DNA of 64,000 nt, from NCBI GenBank assembly GCA_022729235.1, contig JALDAJ010000001.1, positions 948,442-1,012,441 on the forward strand. Direction: 5' to 3'. The translations under genes and the position numbers were made by a program. The notes beneath the pieces are model-generated. The model searched no databases and had not been told where the DNA came from. It worked only from the letters and a program-made list of their open reading frames with translations. The stretch comes from Candidatus Nanohalarchaeota archaeon (GTDB lineage Archaea; Nanohalarchaeota; Nanosalinia; Nanosalinales; Nanosalinaceae). Positions 3,152-49,182 of this stretch are shown piece after piece. The number at the start of each line of letters is the position of its first letter. Within the stretch, counting starts at the first letter, position 1.

Positions 3152-3270
3152 CGGTATAGCTGGGACTAGAAGGATTTTGAAGGGTTCTATACGTGTTCGA
3201 CCTTAAAGCAGTCACCAGTCATTGCAGAACAAGATTAAACAGCAAGCCTTAAAAATCATTACTTTATCTA

Positions 3271-3282
3271 CGAATATCGTAA
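3271..3282 (+). promoter_or_regulatory. putative Lrp-family operator, copy 1 (dapAB side)
   Basis: CGAATATCGTAA lies about 75 bp before the start of the membrane protein-dapA-dapB unit and about 33 bp upstream of its TATA-like element. The core is part of the inverted repeat TACGA-ATA-TCGTA. The same 12-mer with one or two A/T changes recurs at 6198 and 11340, each time in a promoter region of lysine/arginine genes. The link to the Lrp/AsnC protein encoded at 5761-6162 is inference. Confidence 0.6.
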
Positions 3283-3313
3283 AAATATTCATATCTGGAT
3301 ACGAATTTAGAAA

Positions 3314-3324
3314 GACTATATAAA
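3314..3324 (+). promoter_or_regulatory. TATA-like promoter of the dapAB unit
   Basis: An actatataaaa element lies about 25-33 bp upstream of the ATG at 3347, the right place for an archaeal TATA box giving a leaderless or very short-leader transcript. Confidence 0.6.
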
Positions 3325-3346
3325 AGTTAACTCAAATCCTCAAAAC

Positions 3347-4078
3347 ATGGTTCTTGGAAACCTTGATCAGGGTACCCGGAAGCTGATATTTATCTTATGT
3401 CTTCCTTTAATAGACGGAGTATTTCCTACGTTACTCGTAACAGGAGCTGTTTCAACGTTTTCTGATATACTGGCTATAGCCATTACGATATTCGCAGGTG
3501 CCGGGGCGCTTGCAGTTCTTTACTCCTATTCGGATTCAGTAAGAGATGCCCAGAGAATGGTTATCCAATCAGCACCGCTACTTTTGGCAGGAGTTTTCCT
3601 GACTGCGTTGGTAGCCCCGATTTTCGAGCAATTATTTTACATCGAGAGACTTAGGTATGCGGCAGGTCTCGCACTGATAATTATAGGCGCTCAACTGGCA
3701 GAAGTATCGCTATCAGAAAGTATACCTGCTTCGGCAATAATAATCGCAGGGATGACCGTGTCTGTAAAGAACCCTTCCGCATTTGTTATTAACCTTGGAT
3801 ACGTGGCTCCAGCACTAGCAACTGCAATAGCCTCTCTTACTCTTCTGTACCTTGCAACTTTCCTGAGAAATATTGAGATGTCAATAACACGTCTCCAGAG
3901 AGGCTCTGCGATCGTATTATTCACAGTAAGCCTCTCGATGTTCGGATTTAACGTACCAACCGAGTTAGGACTTGCGATCTTTGGCGGAGCATTCATCATG
4001 TCACTTCAAAGACCTGATATATCCGAAATCAATCCTTTTTACAGAATACTAGAGATGATTAACAATGGCAGAATTTGA
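3347..4078 (+). CDS. multi-pass membrane protein (DUF5794-like), first gene of the dapAB unit
   Basis: A 243-residue very hydrophobic protein with roughly seven or eight transmembrane segments and few charged loops. It resembles the haloarchaeal DUF5794 family, whose function is unknown; I recognise the general pattern rather than a diagnostic motif. Its 3' end overlaps dapA by 14 nt, so the two are translationally coupled and share the promoter and putative Lrp operator upstream. That context makes a role in amino-acid movement or membrane sensing plausible, but nothing in the sequence proves transport. Base composition is more AT-rich than that of dapA. Confidence 0.75.
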   Translation: MVLGNLDQGTRKLIFILCLPLIDGVFPTLLVTGAVSTFSDILAIAITIFAGAGALAVLYSYSDSVRDAQRMVIQSAPLLLAGVFLTALVAPIFEQLFYIERLRYAAGLALIIIGAQLAEVSLSESIPASAIIIAGMTVSVKNPSAFVINLGYVAPALATAIASLTLLYLATFLRNIEMSITRLQRGSAIVLFTVSLSMFGFNVPTELGLAIFGGAFIMSLQRPDISEINPFYRILEMINNGRI

Positions 4079-5015
4079 ACCAGTAGGGATCTTTCCCGCA
4101 CTCCCTACACCCATCACCGATGATGGATCGATCAATTACGAAGCAGCACAAAACCATATAGAATTTCTCGAAGAGCAGGGCGTCCACGGGATAGTGCCCG
4201 CCGGGTGTACTGGACACGCCGCAACACTGGGAGACCAGGGAGAGGAAGTGTACGATGAACACGTCGAGTTTGTTTCCCGTATCGCAGACATGACCTCGCT
4301 ACCCATTATCGCAGGAGACGGCATGAACTCGACGGAACAGACGCTTGAGCTCGCATCCAGGATAGAGGAAGAGGCGGATATCGACGCCCACCTCGTGATC
4401 TCGCCTTACCAGAACTGTCCTCCACAGGACCTTATAGTCGAGCACTACCGTAGACTCGCGGAAGAACTTGAGAAACCGATTATCGCATACAACGTTCCGG
4501 GGCGGACAGGAAGGAACATCGAGGCAGAGACTACGCTGGAGCTGGCGAGGATTGATGGTGTAATAGGCATCAAGGAGGCGTCACTTGACTACCACCAGAT
4601 ACACAGGATAGGAAGGATGCTCCAGGCAGAAGGAATCGACGACTTCTATCTTGGTTCAGGCGACGACTCTGCGAACCACTTCGTCTTCGAGCAGGGCGGA
4701 AGTTTCGCGATTTCAGTATCCGGGAACGTACACCCTGAAGCAGTGGTGGAAGTATGGAGAGAAGGATACGAGAACCAGGACGCCGTAGCAGCTTACGAGA
4801 GAAACCAGGAACTTATGCCTTTACATGACGCGATGTTCCAGCCCGGCGAGAAAAACCCTATCTCGGTACAGTATGCGTTGAATCTGGTAGGATTCGACTT
4901 TGGAACTCCGCGGGCACCGCTGGACAGGATGCCAAGGCAGGACGATGAATACAGTAACCAGGAAGAGTTGAGAAACGTACTTGATAGTTACTCCCTCCTT
5001 GATGCGGTACAGTGA
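4065..5015 (+). CDS. dapA: 4-hydroxy-tetrahydrodipicolinate synthase family protein
   Basis: Condenses pyruvate with aspartate semialdehyde, the first committed step of the diaminopimelate route to lysine. The 316-residue TIM barrel shows YNVPGRTG (Tyr142, Arg147) and IGIKEAS with the Schiff-base Lys170. The usual GTTGE loop is GCTGH at 47-51, so the second Thr is kept while the first Thr becomes Cys and the Glu becomes His. The family also includes sugar-acid aldolases and N-acetylneuraminate lyase; here the next gene is dapB with 4 nt between stop and start, which strongly favours the lysine role. The start overlaps the upstream membrane gene. Confidence 0.9.
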   Translation: MAEFEPVGIFPALPTPITDDGSINYEAAQNHIEFLEEQGVHGIVPAGCTGHAATLGDQGEEVYDEHVEFVSRIADMTSLPIIAGDGMNSTEQTLELASRIEEEADIDAHLVISPYQNCPPQDLIVEHYRRLAEELEKPIIAYNVPGRTGRNIEAETTLELARIDGVIGIKEASLDYHQIHRIGRMLQAEGIDDFYLGSGDDSANHFVFEQGGSFAISVSGNVHPEAVVEVWREGYENQDAVAAYERNQELMPLHDAMFQPGEKNPISVQYALNLVGFDFGTPRAPLDRMPRQDDEYSNQEELRNVLDSYSLLDAVQ

Positions 5016-5019
5016 TAGA

Positions 5020-5760
5020 ATGCTGAAAATAGCTGTTACCGGTGCAGAGGGCAGAATGGGGTCTGAGGTAAGGGATGCTATCGCGGAAAAAAGCGGCGTG
5101 CAGACAGTTCTGGCAGTTGACCAATCACCTACAGAAGCCGAAGACGAGGAGAACTTTCAGGAGCTTATAAGTGAACACAACGCGGATATAGTGATAGATT
5201 TCACCACCCCCGAAGCTACTCTTCGCTACGCCGAGATATGCGCTGGGGAAGAAGTACCCCTGGTTACCGGGACCACTGGCTTAAGCGAGGAAGAGTTTGA
5301 ACAACTGGAGGAGCTCTCACTTGATACAGCGATACTCCACGCCTCGAACTTCTCACAGGGTATACAGGCGCTCAGGAACGCTCTTCAAGACGCCGTGTCA
5401 TCACTCCCAGGATATGATATAGAGATAGTCGAGACCCACCATAACAGGAAAACTGACGCGCCGAGCGGGACCGCGAAGACGATACTGGAAGATGTACAGG
5501 CGCAGAGAGAGGTAGAATCGACGGTTCACGGCAGAGAAGGCGAACAGCCGAGAGATGACGGAGAAATCGGTGTTCACGCGGTCCGGGCTGGTAATGTGAG
5601 AGGAGAGCACAGAGTGATAATCGCAGGAAATGATGAAGTTCTCTCTATCAACCACCGATCCGAGTCCCGCCAGGTATTTGCACAGGGTGCTATAGAAGCA
5701 GCGGAATGGCTTGTAAAGCAGGATAAAGGATTCTACAGTTTCGAGGAAGTACTGGAATAG
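5020..5760 (+). CDS. dapB: 4-hydroxy-tetrahydrodipicolinate reductase
   Basis: Reduces the DapA product to tetrahydrodipicolinate with NAD(P)H. The start was placed at the ATG at 5020 because the protein then begins MLKIAVTGAEGRMG, the cofactor-binding glycine loop expected at the extreme N-terminus; upstream in-frame Met codons would add about 13 unrelated residues overlapping dapA. The catalytic segment THHNRKTDAPSGTA (His pair and Lys) is intact and the length of 246 residues is normal. The stop abuts the stop of the convergent Lrp gene with no spacer. Confidence 0.95.
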   Translation: MLKIAVTGAEGRMGSEVRDAIAEKSGVQTVLAVDQSPTEAEDEENFQELISEHNADIVIDFTTPEATLRYAEICAGEEVPLVTGTTGLSEEEFEQLEELSLDTAILHASNFSQGIQALRNALQDAVSSLPGYDIEIVETHHNRKTDAPSGTAKTILEDVQAQREVESTVHGREGEQPRDDGEIGVHAVRAGNVRGEHRVIIAGNDEVLSINHRSESRQVFAQGAIEAAEWLVKQDKGFYSFEEVLE

Positions 5761-6162
5761 TCACGTGCTCCGGGTGTTGAGAACCGTAAATGTTGTCGTG
5801 TCGGAGACTCCATCTAGGGCTCTGATAGCGTCGAGAACACTGTTGACCTGCTGCATGCTCTCACGGGAAAACCGGACTATAAGATCGTACCCTCCAGCGA
5901 CCTCGTATACCTCAAGACTTCCAGGCATCTCCTCGGAGAGACCGTTTATGTTCACATTGGGCTCGAGATCGACCATCACTACCGCTGATGCTTCATCAGA
6001 TACCTCGACCGTAAATCTCTCTATCGCTCCTTCCTCCTTTAAACTTTCAACCCGGTTCCTGACGGTTCCCTCGGAGACCCCGAGTTCATCCGCTATATCG
6101 GTGTAGGGTGTCCGGGCGTCCTCTTTCAAAACATCCAGTATCTTTCGATCAGTCTCGTCCAT
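5761..6162 (-). CDS. Lrp/AsnC-family transcriptional regulator, probable LysM-like regulator
   Basis: A 133-residue protein with an N-terminal winged helix-turn-helix (about residues 1-50: DRKILDVLKEDAR, then ADELGVSEGTVRNRV) and a C-terminal RAM ligand-binding domain (VVMVDLEPNVN through FTVLNT). In Sulfolobus the related LysM controls lysW-X-J-K; here the gene is divergent from lysW and convergent with dapB, so a local role in lysine/arginine control is likely. The shared 12-mer CGAWTWTCGTAA upstream of three units is its candidate binding site, including its own promoter (autoregulation). Effector identity is not visible. Confidence 0.9.
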   Translation of the reverse strand: MDETDRKILDVLKEDARTPYTDIADELGVSEGTVRNRVESLKEEGAIERFTVEVSDEASAVVMVDLEPNVNINGLSEEMPGSLEVYEVAGGYDLIVRFSRESMQQVNSVLDAIRALDGVSDTTTFTVLNTRST

Positions 6163-6197
6163 ACAGTTACACTCTCACCCGACGGTTAAATATATTT

Positions 6198-6209
6198 CGA
6201 TTTTCGTAA
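6198..6209 (+). promoter_or_regulatory. putative Lrp-family operator, copy 2 (lrp/lysW divergent promoter)
   Basis: CGATTTTCGTAA lies between the divergent promoters of the Lrp gene (minus, AAATATATTTAA at about 6186-6197) and lysW (plus, tttaaaatat at about 6224-6233). It abuts both TATA-like elements, so one bound dimer could affect both. It matches the copies at 3271 and 11340. Confidence 0.6.
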
Positions 6210-6267
6210 TAATATTAGAGAAGTTTTAAAATATTTGGACATATATCTTCGATTTACAGGTGATAAG

Positions 6268-6444
6268 ATGACAAATCAAACAGCAGAATGTGTTGAATGC
6301 GGTTCAAGCTTGGAAATCCCGGAAGATGTTGAAAGAGGCGAGATTATCGACTGCAGTACGTGCGGAGCAGAACTGGAAGTAGTTGAAGAAGATCCGGTAG
6401 ATATCGAGGAAGCTCCTGAACTCGAAGAGGACTGGGGGGAATAG
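6268..6444 (+). CDS. lysW: LysW amino-group carrier protein
   Basis: A 58-residue carrier whose C-terminal Glu is ligated to the alpha-amino group of glutamate or alpha-aminoadipate, protecting it through the later steps. Zinc-ribbon cysteines are at 8, 11, 29 and 32, and the protein ends EDWGE, the diagnostic LysW tail. The ATG at 6268 follows an AGGTGAT ribosome-binding site by about 4 nt; an in-frame start 33 nt further upstream would add residues not found in the family. It is first in lysW-lysX-lysY. Confidence 0.96.
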   Translation: MTNQTAECVECGSSLEIPEDVERGEIIDCSTCGAELEVVEEDPVDIEEAPELEEDWGE

Positions 6445-6447
6445 ATT

Positions 6448-7305
6448 TTGCATATCGGATTCCTTTACTCCCGTATAAGAAAGGACGAGAAGCTCCTCCT
6501 CAATGAATTACGAGACAGAGGTCACGAAGTGACCAAGATAGATATTAGAGAGCAGCAGTTCGGGCTTTCCGGACCTAAAGGAGATTCTGTGGATGTCAGC
6601 GATCTCGATATAATACTGAACCGGTGTATGTCGACGTCCCGGGGTATATACGCCACCAGGATGTACGAATCATACGGCGTAAAAGTTGTGAACAGCTCTG
6701 GCACAGCAGAAACCTGTGCAGACAAGGTCGAGACCAGCCTTACGTTAAAAGAAGCTGGAGTACCTACTCCCCGGACCGAGGTCGCATTCACAGAAGAAAG
6801 TGCGCTCGAGGTTATCGAGAGGTTCGGTTACCCATGTGTCGTGAAACCAGTCACAGGGTCGTGGGGAAGACTGCTTGCAAAGGTGGACAGCCGTCATTCA
6901 GCAGAGGCTGTTCTTGAACACAAGTCTACCCTTGGTCACTACGAGCACAGTATTTTCTATATACAGGAGTTCGTAGAGAAACCCGGCCGCGACATAAGAG
7001 TACTCGCCGTCGACGGCGAACCTGTAGCTTCTATCGCGAGAAAGGCTGACCACTGGATAACCAATACTTCACGCGGGGCAGAATCCGAACAGTTCGAACT
7101 GGACGAAGAAGCCAGGGAAATAGTCAGGGACGCAAACAACGCAGTTGGAGGAGGACTCCTGGGAATCGATCTCATGGAGACCGGTGACAGCTATACTGTC
7201 CACGAGGTAAACCACGGCACGGAGTTCAAGAACATACACCGCGTTACCGATGTCGATGTCCCTGCAGGTATAATTAACTGGATAGAGTCAGAGGTGGAAA
7301 GATGA
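6448..7305 (+). CDS. lysX: LysX/ArgX-type LysW ligase (ATP-grasp)
   Basis: An ATP-grasp ligase that joins LysW to alpha-aminoadipate (lysine route) or glutamate (arginine route). Visible features are KPVTGSWGR at 133-141, RDIRVLAVDG at 181-190, WITNTSRGAE at 203-212 and the metal/ATP segment HEVNHGTEFKN near 252-262. It starts at TTG, 3 nt after the lysW stop, since the protein then begins MHIGFLYSRIRKDEK as relatives do. Whether it prefers aminoadipate or glutamate cannot be decided here; the nearby dapA-dapB suggest that lysine may be made from diaminopimelate, which would free this enzyme for glutamate. Confidence 0.93.
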   Translation: MHIGFLYSRIRKDEKLLLNELRDRGHEVTKIDIREQQFGLSGPKGDSVDVSDLDIILNRCMSTSRGIYATRMYESYGVKVVNSSGTAETCADKVETSLTLKEAGVPTPRTEVAFTEESALEVIERFGYPCVVKPVTGSWGRLLAKVDSRHSAEAVLEHKSTLGHYEHSIFYIQEFVEKPGRDIRVLAVDGEPVASIARKADHWITNTSRGAESEQFELDEEAREIVRDANNAVGGGLLGIDLMETGDSYTVHEVNHGTEFKNIHRVTDVDVPAGIINWIESEVER

Positions 7306-8321
7306 GTGAGTACACCGCATCGATAATAGGCGGGAGCGGTTACACTGGAGGCGAACTACTGAGAATACTCCGGAAACACCCTGACTTCGAAGCAGTCCAG
7401 ACTACAAGCCGTAGTTACTCTGGTAGAAAGGTAGGCTCGATACACCCCGACCTGAGAGATGCAGACCTGAGATTTTCAGAAGGTGAAGAACTCGAAGAGG
7501 TAGATGTGCTTTTCTCTGCAACGCCAAAAGGCGTGACGATGGAGAATATCGACAGGTACAGGGCGGTGGCGGATAAGGTTGTAGACTTGAGCTCTGACTT
7601 CAGGCTTAACGATATAGACGCGTACCGTGAATGGTACGGAGAGCACGAACGACCAGACATTATCCAGCAGTTCGAGTACGCACTGCCAGAAGTCAACCGG
7701 GAAAACCTCTCCAGTGCAGACCTCATCGCAGCAGGCGGGTGCAACGCGACAGCATCCATTCTCGGTCTCTACCCGCTGAGAGAGATACTGTCGGAGGATA
7801 TAAAGATCATAGTTGACGCAAAGGTCGGGTCGTCAGAGGGCGGTTCCGGTGGCGGAAGGTCGTCTTCGCATGCCGAAAGGTCGGGTATTATCCGTCCGTA
7901 TGCACCCACAGAACACAGGCACGCCGCCGAGGTCAGCCAGGCAGTAGGTGTTGAAGCAGACTTCACAGCCCACGCCGTGGAGATGGTGAGAGGTGCGTAC
8001 GCGACGATTCACGTTATGCAGGATATTGAGAAAAAGGATATGTGGAAAAGGTTCAGGGAAGAATATGGGGAAGAACCCTTTGTACGGTTCACCTCAGGCT
8101 CCGGCATCTACAGGTATCCCCAGCCGAAGAACGTTGCAGGCACTAACTACGGCGAAATCGGTTTTGAGACAGGTGAAGGAAGGGTCGTGATTTTCTCGGC
8201 TATAGACAACCTGGTGAAAGGTTCAGCAGGACAGGCTGTCCAGGCAGTAAACATATCTCTCGGTCTCGAAGAGACTCGTGGTCTTGGATTTGAAGGTATA
8301 CACCCCTCTGGAACGCCTTAA
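7302..8321 (+). CDS. lysY: LysW-aminoadipate/glutamate semialdehyde reductase (ArgC family)
   Basis: Reduces the LysW-linked acyl phosphate to the semialdehyde with NADPH. GGSGYTGGELL (10-20) is the nucleotide-binding loop, AAGGCNATAS (143-152) holds the catalytic Cys147, and a glycine/serine-rich loop SSEGGSGGGRSSSHAER follows, as in the LysY/ArgC family. The length of 339 residues is normal. The start overlaps the lysX stop by 4 nt (ATGA), so the two are coupled. The 3' end overlaps the convergent lysK by 4 nt. Confidence 0.95.
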   Translation: MSEYTASIIGGSGYTGGELLRILRKHPDFEAVQTTSRSYSGRKVGSIHPDLRDADLRFSEGEELEEVDVLFSATPKGVTMENIDRYRAVADKVVDLSSDFRLNDIDAYREWYGEHERPDIIQQFEYALPEVNRENLSSADLIAAGGCNATASILGLYPLREILSEDIKIIVDAKVGSSEGGSGGGRSSSHAERSGIIRPYAPTEHRHAAEVSQAVGVEADFTAHAVEMVRGAYATIHVMQDIEKKDMWKRFREEYGEEPFVRFTSGSGIYRYPQPKNVAGTNYGEIGFETGEGRVVIFSAIDNLVKGSAGQAVQAVNISLGLEETRGLGFEGIHPSGTP

Positions 8322-9334
8322 TCCGTTAGTTCTTCGACCAGGTTCTCAAGCACGCGGACCGACTTTTCAAAATCTCCAAGGTCCAGCCGCTCACCAGGAG
8401 TGTGGTCCAGCTCAGAGTTGCCAGGACCATACGTGGCCATGGGGCAGTCCCAGACCTCTGCGTACCGGTTCATGTCGCAGGTCCCTGTCTTCCTGATCAT
8501 CCGGGGCTCACCGCCTATATCCCTGATACCGGAGCGGAAGATACGTGCTATCTCGCTTCTTGGACTCTTCATAACGGGTGGCGTACTCCTTAACCATTCG
8601 ATACTTCCGTTCTCCATGTGTTCCTCTATACGATTCTTCACATCCTCTATTTTCTCTGCTGGCGGTACACGTACCTGGAAACGGATACTTGCTCTGGTGG
8701 ATAGTCCTTCTTCCTGTCCGCCATCGATAGATAGAGGTTTGACATTAACAGCTTCAAAACCGTCTCCCGCGAACTCGTCTTCGATACGTGACCAGAAACT
8801 GACTGCTCTCTGTATCGCGTTCGGCTCGGGGCGCGAGGAATGGAAGAGTTCTTCCTCGACACTGTACACCCCGACAATAGAACCTCTATACCCCAGTGCA
8901 ATGCCATTCCAACCGGTCGGCTCGCCGTTTATCACGTAACCCGGCTCCTCCATGTCCTGGGTCAGGTACTCTGCGCCTTTCGAATCCGTCTCCTCTCTCA
9001 CGACGCCGGCAAAGTCTGCTCCGGTATTCACCGCAACTACGGCCATCGTAGCGAGAGGTCCTTTTGCGTCGACACTCCCTCTGCCGTGTAAAGTACCGTC
9101 CTCAACCTTTACCTCAAGGTCGCCGGGAACGGTGTCGATGTGCGAGGTCAGGAGAACCTCGTTTCCCGGAGCCCGGACGTTTCCTACCCCATCTATCCAG
9201 ACCTCTCTATCATTGTTTTCAAAGAACTCTACAAGCAGCTCCGCGCATTTTCTCTCCTCACCAGATGGCGAAGGCGTATCAACCAGTTCTACAAGCAACT
9301 CTCTAGCCTCTTCTAGACCGACTTCACTCGTAAT
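8318..9334 (-). CDS. lysK: LysW-lysine/ornithine hydrolase (M20 family)
   Basis: Releases lysine or ornithine from LysW. M20 metallopeptidase features are PSPSGEE near the N-terminus, SHIDTVPG, GRGSVDAKGP, EETDSKGAEYL and a late LDHTPGERLDL histidine. The first canonical start, TTG at 9298, would leave only seven residues before PSPSG and cut the usual N-terminal helix. The frame stays open upstream through EVGLEEARE to an ATT at 9334, which follows GGTGA by 6 nt inside the end of lysJ, so I give the ATT start; it is a proposal. It would overlap lysJ by 11 nt. Third gene of lysZ-lysJ-lysK. Confidence 0.9.
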   Translation of the reverse strand: MTSEVGLEEARELLVELVDTPSPSGEERKCAELLVEFFENNDREVWIDGVGNVRAPGNEVLLTSHIDTVPGDLEVKVEDGTLHGRGSVDAKGPLATMAVVAVNTGADFAGVVREETDSKGAEYLTQDMEEPGYVINGEPTGWNGIALGYRGSIVGVYSVEEELFHSSRPEPNAIQRAVSFWSRIEDEFAGDGFEAVNVKPLSIDGGQEEGLSTRASIRFQVRVPPAEKIEDVKNRIEEHMENGSIEWLRSTPPVMKSPRSEIARIFRSGIRDIGGEPRMIRKTGTCDMNRYAEVWDCPMATYGPGNSELDHTPGERLDLGDFEKSVRVLENLVEELTD

Positions 9335-10460
9335 CCTCTATCACCTTCTCAAGCGCCTCAACGAACTTGTCGACGTGACCCTCTTCTATAGTTAGTGGCG
9401 GTAGAAGTCTGAGGACTGTCCTACCAGTCGGTAGCGCCAGAACGCCGTGCTCCAGCGCGAGATTCTTCAATACCTTGTTGGCATCCCTTCTTAATTCAAC
9501 TCCGACCATCAGACCCTCTCCCCTCACATCTCTTATGAAGGAGTGCCTGTTTTCAAGTTCTTCCAGCCGAGACATCATGTAGCTCCCGACCTCAGAGGCA
9601 TTCTCTACCAGACCCTCGTCTTCTATAACGGACAGAGTGGCTCTACCGGCGGCAGTCACGGCAGGGCTGCCACTGAACGTCGATCCGTGAGGTCCCGCGT
9701 TTTCTGCTATCCAGTCCCTGCATATTGTGGCTCCTAGCGGGAAGCCTCCTGCAAGACCTTTCGCAACTGTGATTATATCGGGGGTTACCTCCACTGACTC
9801 ACATCTCCACATCTCTCCTGTCCTGCCGAGACCTGTCTGTATCTCATCCAGTACAAGTACCGCATCGTTCTCTTCAGTTATCTCTCTCGCTGTCTGCAGG
9901 TATTCCCGGGTCGCAGGGTGTAATCCGCCCTCTCCCTGGATGGGCTCCAGTATAACTGCTGCGGTATCCTCGTCAACCACCGCCTCTAGTTCTTCAATAT
10001 CATTGTACCTTACAAACTCTGCATCGAGAAGTGGTTCAAATGGCTCCCTGTACTTTTTCTTCCACGTGGCGGATAGAGAACCTGCTGTCCTGCCGTGGAA
10101 ACCTCTCTTCGCCGCCACTATCTTTGACCCTGTGGTCGCGCTCCTGGCAAACTTTAATGCTGCCTCGTTAGCCTCGGAACCGGAGTTCGATAGCCAGACG
10201 TTAGATAACCCCTCCGGCGCAGCTGATACCAGTTCCTCCTCGAAGCTCTTGCGGACGCTGTTGGGATAGGATGACTGGACGTAGATAAGTTCATCGAGCT
10301 GGTCTTTTACGGCTTCAACCACTTGGGGATGGTTGTGACCTGTTACAGTAACGGCGTAGCTCGCGCCGAAGTCCAGGTATTCTTCTCCGTTTTCGTCATA
10401 AAGATATGGACCGTCACCTTTCTCTACCTGTATCGGCTTCTTGTTGATTACAAATCCCAT
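9324..10460 (-). CDS. lysJ: LysW-semialdehyde aminotransferase (ArgD/LysJ family)
   Basis: A class III PLP aminotransferase that converts the LysW-linked semialdehyde to LysW-lysine or LysW-ornithine. Expected features are present: an early DENGEEYLDFGASYAV segment, GFHGRTAGSLSAT, LDEIQTGLGRTG and the PLP lysine in VAKGLAGGFPLGA. I chose the ATG at 10460, one nucleotide after the lysZ stop (TAGAATG), which gives 379 residues; the longer frame would overlap lysZ by 74 nt. Related ArgD enzymes also act on succinylaminoketopimelate, so this protein could serve a diaminopimelate branch as well. Confidence 0.94.
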   Translation of the reverse strand: MGFVINKKPIQVEKGDGPYLYDENGEEYLDFGASYAVTVTGHNHPQVVEAVKDQLDELIYVQSSYPNSVRKSFEEELVSAAPEGLSNVWLSNSGSEANEAALKFARSATTGSKIVAAKRGFHGRTAGSLSATWKKKYREPFEPLLDAEFVRYNDIEELEAVVDEDTAAVILEPIQGEGGLHPATREYLQTAREITEENDAVLVLDEIQTGLGRTGEMWRCESVEVTPDIITVAKGLAGGFPLGATICRDWIAENAGPHGSTFSGSPAVTAAGRATLSVIEDEGLVENASEVGSYMMSRLEELENRHSFIRDVRGEGLMVGVELRRDANKVLKNLALEHGVLALPTGRTVLRLLPPLTIEEGHVDKFVEALEKVIEDYE

Positions 10461-10461
10461 T

Positions 10462-11280
10462 CTAGACTGCTCCCGGAGTGAATCCTGTTCCGCGCCCTCC
10501 CAGCGCTTCTGTAACAGGTTTTTCTGTGTCTGCATCTGATATGGTTACCGATTCAGCGCCTTCCTCAAGCGCCTCGCCTGAGGCCATCACTTTCTTGGTC
10601 ATAAAGCCTTCTGCTGCTTCCCGGGCACGTTCCATGTCTTCCGGGGTTTCAATGTCCTCTATAAGCGTGTCCATGTCCTCTGGATCCTCGAAAACACCGG
10701 GTACGTCAGTGATTATCACAAGATCTGCTTCCATCTCACCTGCTATAGCCGCTGCCGCCCTATCTCCGTCCGCGTTTACGGGGGTTCCGTCGTCAGCCAG
10801 CATAGGGAGAGAGATGACAGGCAGGTATTCCCTGTCCATAAGTGTGCGGAGTAAGTCCGTATTAACTTCTTCTACTTTCCCAGAGTGTTCTCCTCTTCTT
10901 ATCTTTTTACGGCCGTTTTCCATAACCTTTACCGCGGACTTTCTCGGTCCAGTAAGCAGTGCCCCATCGACACCTGAAAGACCTACTGCGTTGACATCAA
11001 GATCCTGTAGCCGGGATGTGTAATCCACGTTAAGCTCCCCTGCCATGACCATGTTGAAAACTTTCATCGTCTCTTCATCAGTAAAACGGCTTTTAACTCC
11101 ACCCGGTGTCTCGACGTATTCCGGTTCTTCTCCCATAAGCTCAAGCACCTCATCGAGCCTGCCGGAACCCCCGTGCACTACTATTAACTCTCTACCACTT
11201 TCCCATAATCCTGCGATGTCTTCGATTACAGCTCCCATTTCTAAATCACTGGATCCACTTATTTTTACGACTACAGCCAT
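10462..11280 (-). CDS. lysZ: LysW-aminoadipate/glutamate kinase (ArgB family)
   Basis: Phosphorylates the free carboxylate of the LysW-bound substrate. The 272-residue amino-acid-kinase fold shows VVVKISGSS at the N-terminus, the IVVHGGSGRL glycine loop, PVNADGDRAAAAIA and a C-terminal GTGF. It is the first gene of lysZ-lysJ-lysK, preceded by a TATA-like TTTATAATA about 25 bp upstream and by the shared operator-like 12-mer at 11340. The unit converges on lysW-lysX-lysY, so the six genes are split over two strands. Confidence 0.95.
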   Translation of the reverse strand: MAVVVKISGSSDLEMGAVIEDIAGLWESGRELIVVHGGSGRLDEVLELMGEEPEYVETPGGVKSRFTDEETMKVFNMVMAGELNVDYTSRLQDLDVNAVGLSGVDGALLTGPRKSAVKVMENGRKKIRRGEHSGKVEEVNTDLLRTLMDREYLPVISLPMLADDGTPVNADGDRAAAAIAGEMEADLVIITDVPGVFEDPEDMDTLIEDIETPEDMERAREAAEGFMTKKVMASGEALEEGAESVTISDADTEKPVTEALGGRGTGFTPGAV

Positions 11281-11339
11281 ATTATATCACAGAAAACGTA
11301 AATTTATTATAAATACTCATAATTCTACTTGTTTTGATT

Positions 11340-11351
11340 CGAATTTCGTAA
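11340..11351 (+). promoter_or_regulatory. putative Lrp-family operator, copy 3 (lysZJK side)
   Basis: CGAATTTCGTAA lies 60 bp upstream of the lysZ start and 57 bp upstream of the divergent unknown gene at 11409. It matches the copies at 3271 and 6198 at all fixed positions. TATA-like elements flank it on both sides (lysZ about 11302-11312; the 11409 gene atataaaag about 11378-11386). Confidence 0.6.
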
Positions 11352-11408
11352 GAAAAAGCCAGAACTCAGTAATATCAATATAAAAGTTTATCCGAGATCA
11401 AGTAGATT

Positions 11409-48297: not shown

Positions 48298-49182
48298 CTA
48301 CTCTCTCCACTGATCTTCCACAACCTTCCATTCTTCAGGAGTAAAGCTCAGGTCGGAGTCGGCCTGTACTCCTTCCTCGGCGTACATCACGTCCTGCGGG
48401 TTATCAGAGTGTTCCAGATCAAAGGCATGCCCTATATCATGCAAAGCCACCCTCTTCGTTCCCTCAATATACTCATCGCCGTAGAAATGTTTGAACCCTT
48501 CCTCAGGCGCCATAACGATATTCGTACCGCTGGCAATCGCCATGTAGACGCAGCCGTGGTCGTTATCGCAGTACTCCTCCTCCCAGTCAAGATCCTCTGT
48601 GAACTCCAGCGCACCCTCTGGTAGATCATATGAAGAACTCTGCACGCCCGGTGTCCGGAGTACCTGGATCGCGGCAACTCTTAGCTCCGCCGGTACCTCT
48701 CTTTCAAAGAAATCATCGTACCCTTCCTTGACACCGTGTATCATGGCTGCATCACCTCCGTACTCGTTGACAAACTCGTCCTCGGGATACGCGTATTCAG
48801 GTTTTCTCCGCCCTACAAACGCGTTTATCCCCTCATCTCCGACAGGCGCCTCGTTGTGTACCTCCTCAATGGCACGAGCCACTTCTTCCTCAAGTTGGTG
48901 GTCGCCTACAGGTATGACATCGACAAGGACATTAGGACGGTCAGGATCAAAACCCTCAAAATCCTCGATATATAGGTCTTCAAGCTCTGCCTCAAAGCGA
49001 GAGTTATCCTTCAGGTAATCAGGCACCCCTGTATAGTAAGGCGTCAGTAAGGTCTCCGGCGTCCCCTCAAGAGATCCATGTATCATAGCAGCCATACCTA
49101 CGCCCAGAGACTCCAGTAATCGCCTCCTCGTAGAGTTCAATCTCTCGGCGTATGATCCCAGACTACCCCGATCGAGAACCAT
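48298..49182 (-). CDS. metzincin-like paralog with altered catalytic residue
   Basis: A 294-residue paralog of the preceding gene. The zinc motif reads HDIGHAFDLEHSD with Asp where the catalytic Glu should be, followed by DVMYAEE as the Met-turn. Three zinc His are kept, so it may bind zinc with weak or no proteolysis. The N-terminus STRRRLLESLGVGMAAMIHG also looks Tat-like. Shared segments with its partner include a tyrosine-rich N-terminal region (YTGVPDYLKDN versus YGVPDTYFEDDE) and RVAAIQVLRTPG versus YAAIQVFMVPW. It precedes its partner in a two-gene antisense unit 45 bp apart. Confidence 0.75.
   Translation of the reverse strand: MVLDRGSLGSYAERLNSTRRRLLESLGVGMAAMIHGSLEGTPETLLTPYYTGVPDYLKDNSRFEAELEDLYIEDFEGFDPDRPNVLVDVIPVGDHQLEEEVARAIEEVHNEAPVGDEGINAFVGRRKPEYAYPEDEFVNEYGGDAAMIHGVKEGYDDFFEREVPAELRVAAIQVLRTPGVQSSSYDLPEGALEFTEDLDWEEEYCDNDHGCVYMAIASGTNIVMAPEEGFKHFYGDEYIEGTKRVALHDIGHAFDLEHSDNPQDVMYAEEGVQADSDLSFTPEEWKVVEDQWRE

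Follow-up and report, generated by a model that had tools for sequence, protein, structure and literature searches.

A palindrome shared by lysine and arginine promoters of a nanohaloarchaeon as the predicted operator of a local Lrp regulon

In a nanohaloarchaeal genome (1,027,595 bases in one contig, estimated completeness 95 %), a short box is repeated in three promoter regions of a lysine/arginine locus that also encodes an Lrp-type regulator. Is the box the operator of that regulator, and how did the genes of the locus come under its control? The initial annotation, made on the 64,000-nucleotide stretch of DNA that includes the locus (the window), had taken a 12-mer as the motif and proposed a local regulon. 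The three 12-mers, CGAATATCGTAA (3271-3282), CGATTTTCGTAA (6198-6209) and CGAATTTCGTAA (11340-11351), were confirmed as exact, on the + strand and at the coordinates it had given, and all three are intergenic. The first was found between lysS and the DUF5794-dapA-dapB operon, the second between the divergent lrp and lysW genes, and the third between the divergent lysZ/argB and orf290 genes. The exact 12-mer was present four times in the window, compared with an expectation of 0.02. The fourth copy (3483-3494, minus strand) is within the DUF5794 gene, and the statement that there were no matches outside the promoters was therefore incorrect. A fifth exact copy was found elsewhere in the genome, at the start of a methyltransferase gene (position 212693).

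The 12-mer proved to be an off-centre part of a 15-bp inverted repeat (3268-3282, 6195-6209 and 11337-11351). When one mismatch was allowed, the 12-mer was barely enriched across the genome, with 16 matches against 12 for a reversed-pattern control. As the contrast with one mismatch was poor and the core of the inverted repeat was rare genome-wide, the 12-mer was dropped as a motif in favour of the palindrome. Alignment of the sites found in relatives gave the full element as a 15-bp palindrome, YTWCGA-NNN-TCGWAR, with a 13-bp core, TWCGANNNTCGWA. In 12 sites from nine genomes, this core consisted of two 5-bp half-sites separated by a 3-bp, mostly AT centre. The features of the locus are listed in Table 1.

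Table 1. Genes, putative promoter elements and predicted operators of the lysine/arginine locus, in window coordinates
Feature	Position	Strand	Remarks
Predicted distal dap operator CTACGAATATCGTAA	3268..3282		Centre 72 bp before ATG; 20.2 bits
Predicted proximal dap operator, weaker, ATACGAATTTAGAAA	3299..3313		31 bp from distal, abuts BRE/TATA; 14.4 bits
Putative dap operon TATA box TATATAAA	3318..3325	+	Read from sequence; implies leaderless start at 3347
DUF5794 membrane protein gene, dap operon gene 1	3347..4078	+	PF19107
Weak possible intragenic site CTACGTTACTCGTAA	3426..3440		12.5 bits; may be chance
Palindrome-like intragenic site TTACGATATTCGCAG	3483..3497		15.7 bits; contains fourth 12-mer (3483-3494, minus)
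dapA	4065..5015	+	PF00701, TIGR00674
dapB	5020..5760	+	TIGR00036 above cut-off
lrp, 133-aa Lrp/AsnC regulator	5761..6162	-	Best model LysM; nearest structure FL11/PH1519
Putative lrp TATA box, abutting operator	6187..6194	-	Read from sequence
Predicted lrp/lysW operator TTTCGATTTTCGTAA	6195..6209		Centre 40 bp before lrp ATG, 66 bp before lysW ATG; 19.8 bits
Putative lysW TATA box	6225..6232	+	Read from sequence
lysW, carrier protein	6268..6444	+	TIGR01206 above cut-off
lysX/argX ligase	6448..7305	+	TIGR02144 above cut-off
argC/lysY reductase	7302..8321	+	TIGR01850 above cut-off
lysK hydrolase	8318..9298	-	NF003367 above cut-off
argD/lysJ aminotransferase	9324..10535	-	TIGR00707 above cut-off
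argB/lysZ kinase	10462..11280	-	NF010661 above cut-off
Putative argB/lysZ TATA box	11306..11313	-	Read from sequence
Predicted argB/lysZ-orf290 operator ATTCGAATTTCGTAA	11337..11351		Centre 64 bp before one ATG and 65 bp before the other; 19.7 bits
Putative orf290 TATA box	11378..11385	+	Read from sequence
orf290, acidic, 290 aa	11409..12281	+	Candidate further target

The core matched only five times in the 1.03-Mb genome. Three of the matches were the reported promoters, which span 8.1 kb around lrp, and the probability that three of five would fall within 8.1 kb by chance is 5e-6. Matches this few and this clustered are what a local Lrp regulon calls for. The fourth match (position 259649) was found beside a tRNA gene, in a stretch repeating the 3' end of that tRNA, and the fifth (position 155834) was intergenic, past a small ORF and ahead of a VapC-like ORF. 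The tRNA 3'-end repeat, upstream of a 23S rRNA gene (L153:1484-1730, near G000:C1:259649), creates the core match there.

When the window was scanned with a matrix built from the sites of relatives alone, excluding those of this genome, the three promoters ranked highest, at 20.2, 19.8 and 19.7 bits, and only 0.02 hits of at least 19 bits are expected per 64 kb. The next-ranked sites, at 3483 (15.7 bits) and 3299 (14.4 bits), are also in the lysine/arginine locus. A site at 48513-48527 (12.6 bits) is inside a coding region and was set aside, as was a weak lead at 269403 (11.9 bits), which is near argG-argH and also in a coding region. The genome scan proposed in the initial annotation did not find the element spread over coding regions, and the proposed local regulon survives this test. 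It is very improbable that the three boxes arose by chance in AT-rich promoters. The one-mismatch counts of 16 and 12 would fit such an origin, but none of 2000 simulations using promoter composition reached at least 14 bits in all three promoters, and the site recurs at orthologous promoters in other genera. No family match was found in an Rfam search of the locus, hence no known riboswitch is indicated.

The DUF5794 coding sequence has two palindrome-like sites within its first 150 bp (3426-3440 and 3483-3497). An Lrp complex that extends into the gene could account for them, or they could be due to chance. orf290, for which no Pfam or NCBIfam family match was found, shares the promoter bearing the predicted operator with argB/lysZ.

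Nine relatives from seven genera encode an Lrp that is 46-55 % identical to the window Lrp. The core pattern was defined using the window sites together with the lrp promoters of three of these relatives (G009, G013 and G007). Outside this defining set, genome-wide searches located the core at the dapA-side promoters of five relatives (G007, G002, G020, G003 and G012); in G006, it preceded a small ORF next to lrp. In 15 relatives that lack the Lrp, the background was 0-7 core matches per genome. For dapA promoters outside the pattern-defining set, the combined p was approximately 6e-8, with G009, G013 and G017 counted as failures. The scan was repeated with a matrix from which the tested genus was left out, and eight of the nine relatives, representing six of the seven genera, had a strong site in one or both of the lrp and dapA-side promoters. 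One of these was TTACGTTTTTCGTAA (15.6 bits) at the dapA of G013. The control promoters (lysS, mpe, tfb and lysA) did not exceed 4.6 bits. Two results of this analysis count against the palindrome as the Lrp operator. G017 (genus g2) had a site at neither the dapA nor the lrp promoter, despite having the closest DapA (77 %), and the leave-genus-out scan found no site in the lrp promoters of G003, G012, G006 and G020.

The distribution of dapA followed that of the regulator, with dapA found in eight of the nine genomes with Lrp and in none of the 17 without (Fisher p approximately 6e-6, ignoring kinship). The footprint in six of seven related genera and this co-occurrence support the proposal of a local Lrp regulon with the palindrome as its predicted operator. 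In G003 and G012, a small ORF of about 100 aa is found ahead of dapA (L133:3333-3650 and L137:10592-10909). The ORF that follows the predicted operator in G006, which has no dapA, is possibly related to it (L140:977-1279, 28 % identity).

The window Lrp matched PF13404 and PF01037 above their cut-offs, an AsnC-type HTH and, after it, an AsnC/RAM ligand-binding domain, and so belongs by domain content to the Lrp/AsnC family. The best NCBIfam model was LysM (NF040947), with a score of 123.2 bits that is below the equivalog cut-off of 180. The nearest solved structure was PH1519, which is FL11 of Pyrococcus horikoshii OT3, and both DNA-bound and arginine-bound structure entries have been described for it (PMC2995911). 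FL11 binds as a dimer to a 13-bp palindrome, has lysine and arginine as effectors and has targets that include lysJKYZ (PMC2995911). The core found here matches an FL11-type operator in both its 13-bp length, the site length reported for FL11 (PMC2995911), and its 5+3+5 layout. However, FL11 is a predicted global regulator of about 200 units, whereas the core occurs only five times in this genome. In Sulfolobus/Saccharolobus, a LysW-type cluster adjoins the gene for LysM, which acts on lysWXJK and is an activator with sites described just upstream of the BRE (PMC2995911; PMC8578740). The window lrp likewise adjoins the lysW operon, and the lysW promoter includes a candidate operator. Unlike that of LysM, the predicted window regulon also holds dapA-dapB, and the relatives have dapA without a LysW cluster, indicating that the ancestral target differs from that of LysM.

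Sequence comparison makes it very likely that the adjacent LysM/FL11-like Lrp has the boxes as its operator. The palindrome might instead be the operator of another regulator encoded elsewhere, with the neighbouring Lrp a bystander, and the lrp promoters without a site in several relatives are consistent with this. This is unlikely, as the site is found within the lrp promoter itself, at one position in four genera, its 5+3+5 layout equals that of FL11, the nearest structurally known relative, and Lrp and dapA co-occur.

The arrangement of the sites was also conserved. Dap-side promoters of the window, G003, G012 and G006 were alike in having their best secondary site on the gene side of the strong one, at a distance of exactly 31 bp. 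As G003 and G012 belong to one genus, this pairing counts as three genera. The chance of such a secondary-site score at one fixed position was about 1.5e-5 for the window, 1.4e-4 for G003/G012 and 6e-4 for G006. In the lrp promoters of the window, G009, G007 and G013, representing four genera, the centre of the site was 40-43 bp before the ATG. The lysW and argB promoters each had a single site that leaves the TATA box free. Judging from the positions of the putative TATA boxes, the transcripts would mostly be leaderless.

We infer that one Lrp dimer binds each 13-bp core. A spacing of 31 bp corresponds to three helical turns, so that at the dap promoter two dimers would lie along the same side of the helix, the inner one against the BRE/TATA region, while at the lrp promoter one dimer would abut the TATA box. 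The effector is most likely lysine and/or arginine, which would turn synthesis off. Effector-free dimers would activate, as described for LysM, and lrp would be subject to autorepression. We prefer this mode of activation to repression by octamers that carry effector, but give it only about an even chance. Repression, in which octamers with bound lysine or arginine would cover the promoters in the manner described for FL11, is somewhat less likely. At lrp and dap, the sites lie against the BRE/TATA region or overlap it, and FL11, the nearest solved relative, has effectors that are co-repressors (PMC2995911). On the other hand, the family model that fits best is LysM, an activator, activators are described with a site immediately ahead of the BRE (PMC2995911), and the sites at lysW and argB leave the TATA box free. 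These last two sites are more distant from the TATA box than in the described activators, and this counts against the main reading. Activation and repression have the operator in common and both are compatible with the palindrome as the Lrp operator.

Nanohaloarchaeota are reported to have genomes of about 1.0 Mbp and little capacity for amino-acid synthesis (PMC10266531), and the size of this genome, the similar size of its relatives and its acidic proteins point to that group. Family searches of the genome did not find ornithine carbamoyltransferase (TIGR00658, PF00185), lysA (TIGR01048, PF02784) or any HMGL-like protein, homocitrate synthase included (PF00682). The searches were positive in control genomes. 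With an estimated completeness of 95 %, these absences are not absolute. They count against the main reading with respect to the end product sensed. Because of the missing enzymes, dapAB and the LysW block are pieces of known pathways that are seemingly incomplete here. The haloarchaeal kin of the LysW block convert glutamate to ornithine in arginine synthesis. By analogy, the block probably makes ornithine from glutamate, and the gaps in the pathways are probably filled from a host or by unrecognised enzymes. The argG and argH genes are present elsewhere in the genome (G000:C1:270368-272867). The matrix scan found no operator at their promoter, which again counts against the main reading and means that arginine synthesis is only partly included in the regulon.

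In the relatives, lrp is found between dapA and mpe and adjoins both in the tightest cases. In the window, the LysW block and orf290 are found between lrp and mpe. LysX orthologues were not detected in those relatives from its family and order that were searched, where only distant ATP-grasp hits came up, and the closest LysX matches were haloarchaeal (approximately 65 %). The LysW/ArgW arginine cluster of Haloferax and other haloarchaea comprises the same genes, with roughly 50-67 % identity, but there all genes are in one direction, whereas the window block consists of two convergent units. In the block (6268-11280), the second half is inverted relative to haloarchaea. The haloarchaeal loci also differ in having no homologue of the window Lrp nearby and no core match, though the missing core is weak evidence alone because a match is less likely in DNA as GC-rich as theirs.

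In a LysX tree, the window protein was placed beside the sampled haloarchaea but not within them (support 90, quick method). With this position, old common inheritance with losses is a less likely alternative to transfer. The block has the same GC content (51-52 %) as dapA, dapB and lrp and hence did not come recently from GC-rich DNA. From these comparisons, we infer that acquisition of the LysW block by transfer is the likelier origin. The Lrp appears to be native to the archaeal family, and its ancestral role would have been autoregulation of lrp and control of the dapA operon. The regulon would then have been extended to the LysW block, lysW-lysX-argC and the opposite argB-argD-lysK, after its insertion beside lrp, with both outward promoters of the block bearing the predicted operator.

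In the open literature searched, we found neither an Lrp regulon nor an Lrp operator described for nanohaloarchaea. The operator proposed here is a short, exact and testable prediction that is kept across genera. The locus is a clear case of an added biosynthetic block that bears the predicted operator of the regulator beside its insertion point. On balance, we lean towards a history in which a genome-reduced, probably symbiotic archaeon took the LysW block from a haloarchaeon-like donor and placed it beside the native regulator of lysine genes, after which the native operator evolved in both new promoters and brought the block under pre-existing feedback control. The locus thus opens the regulatory capture of incoming genes to study.
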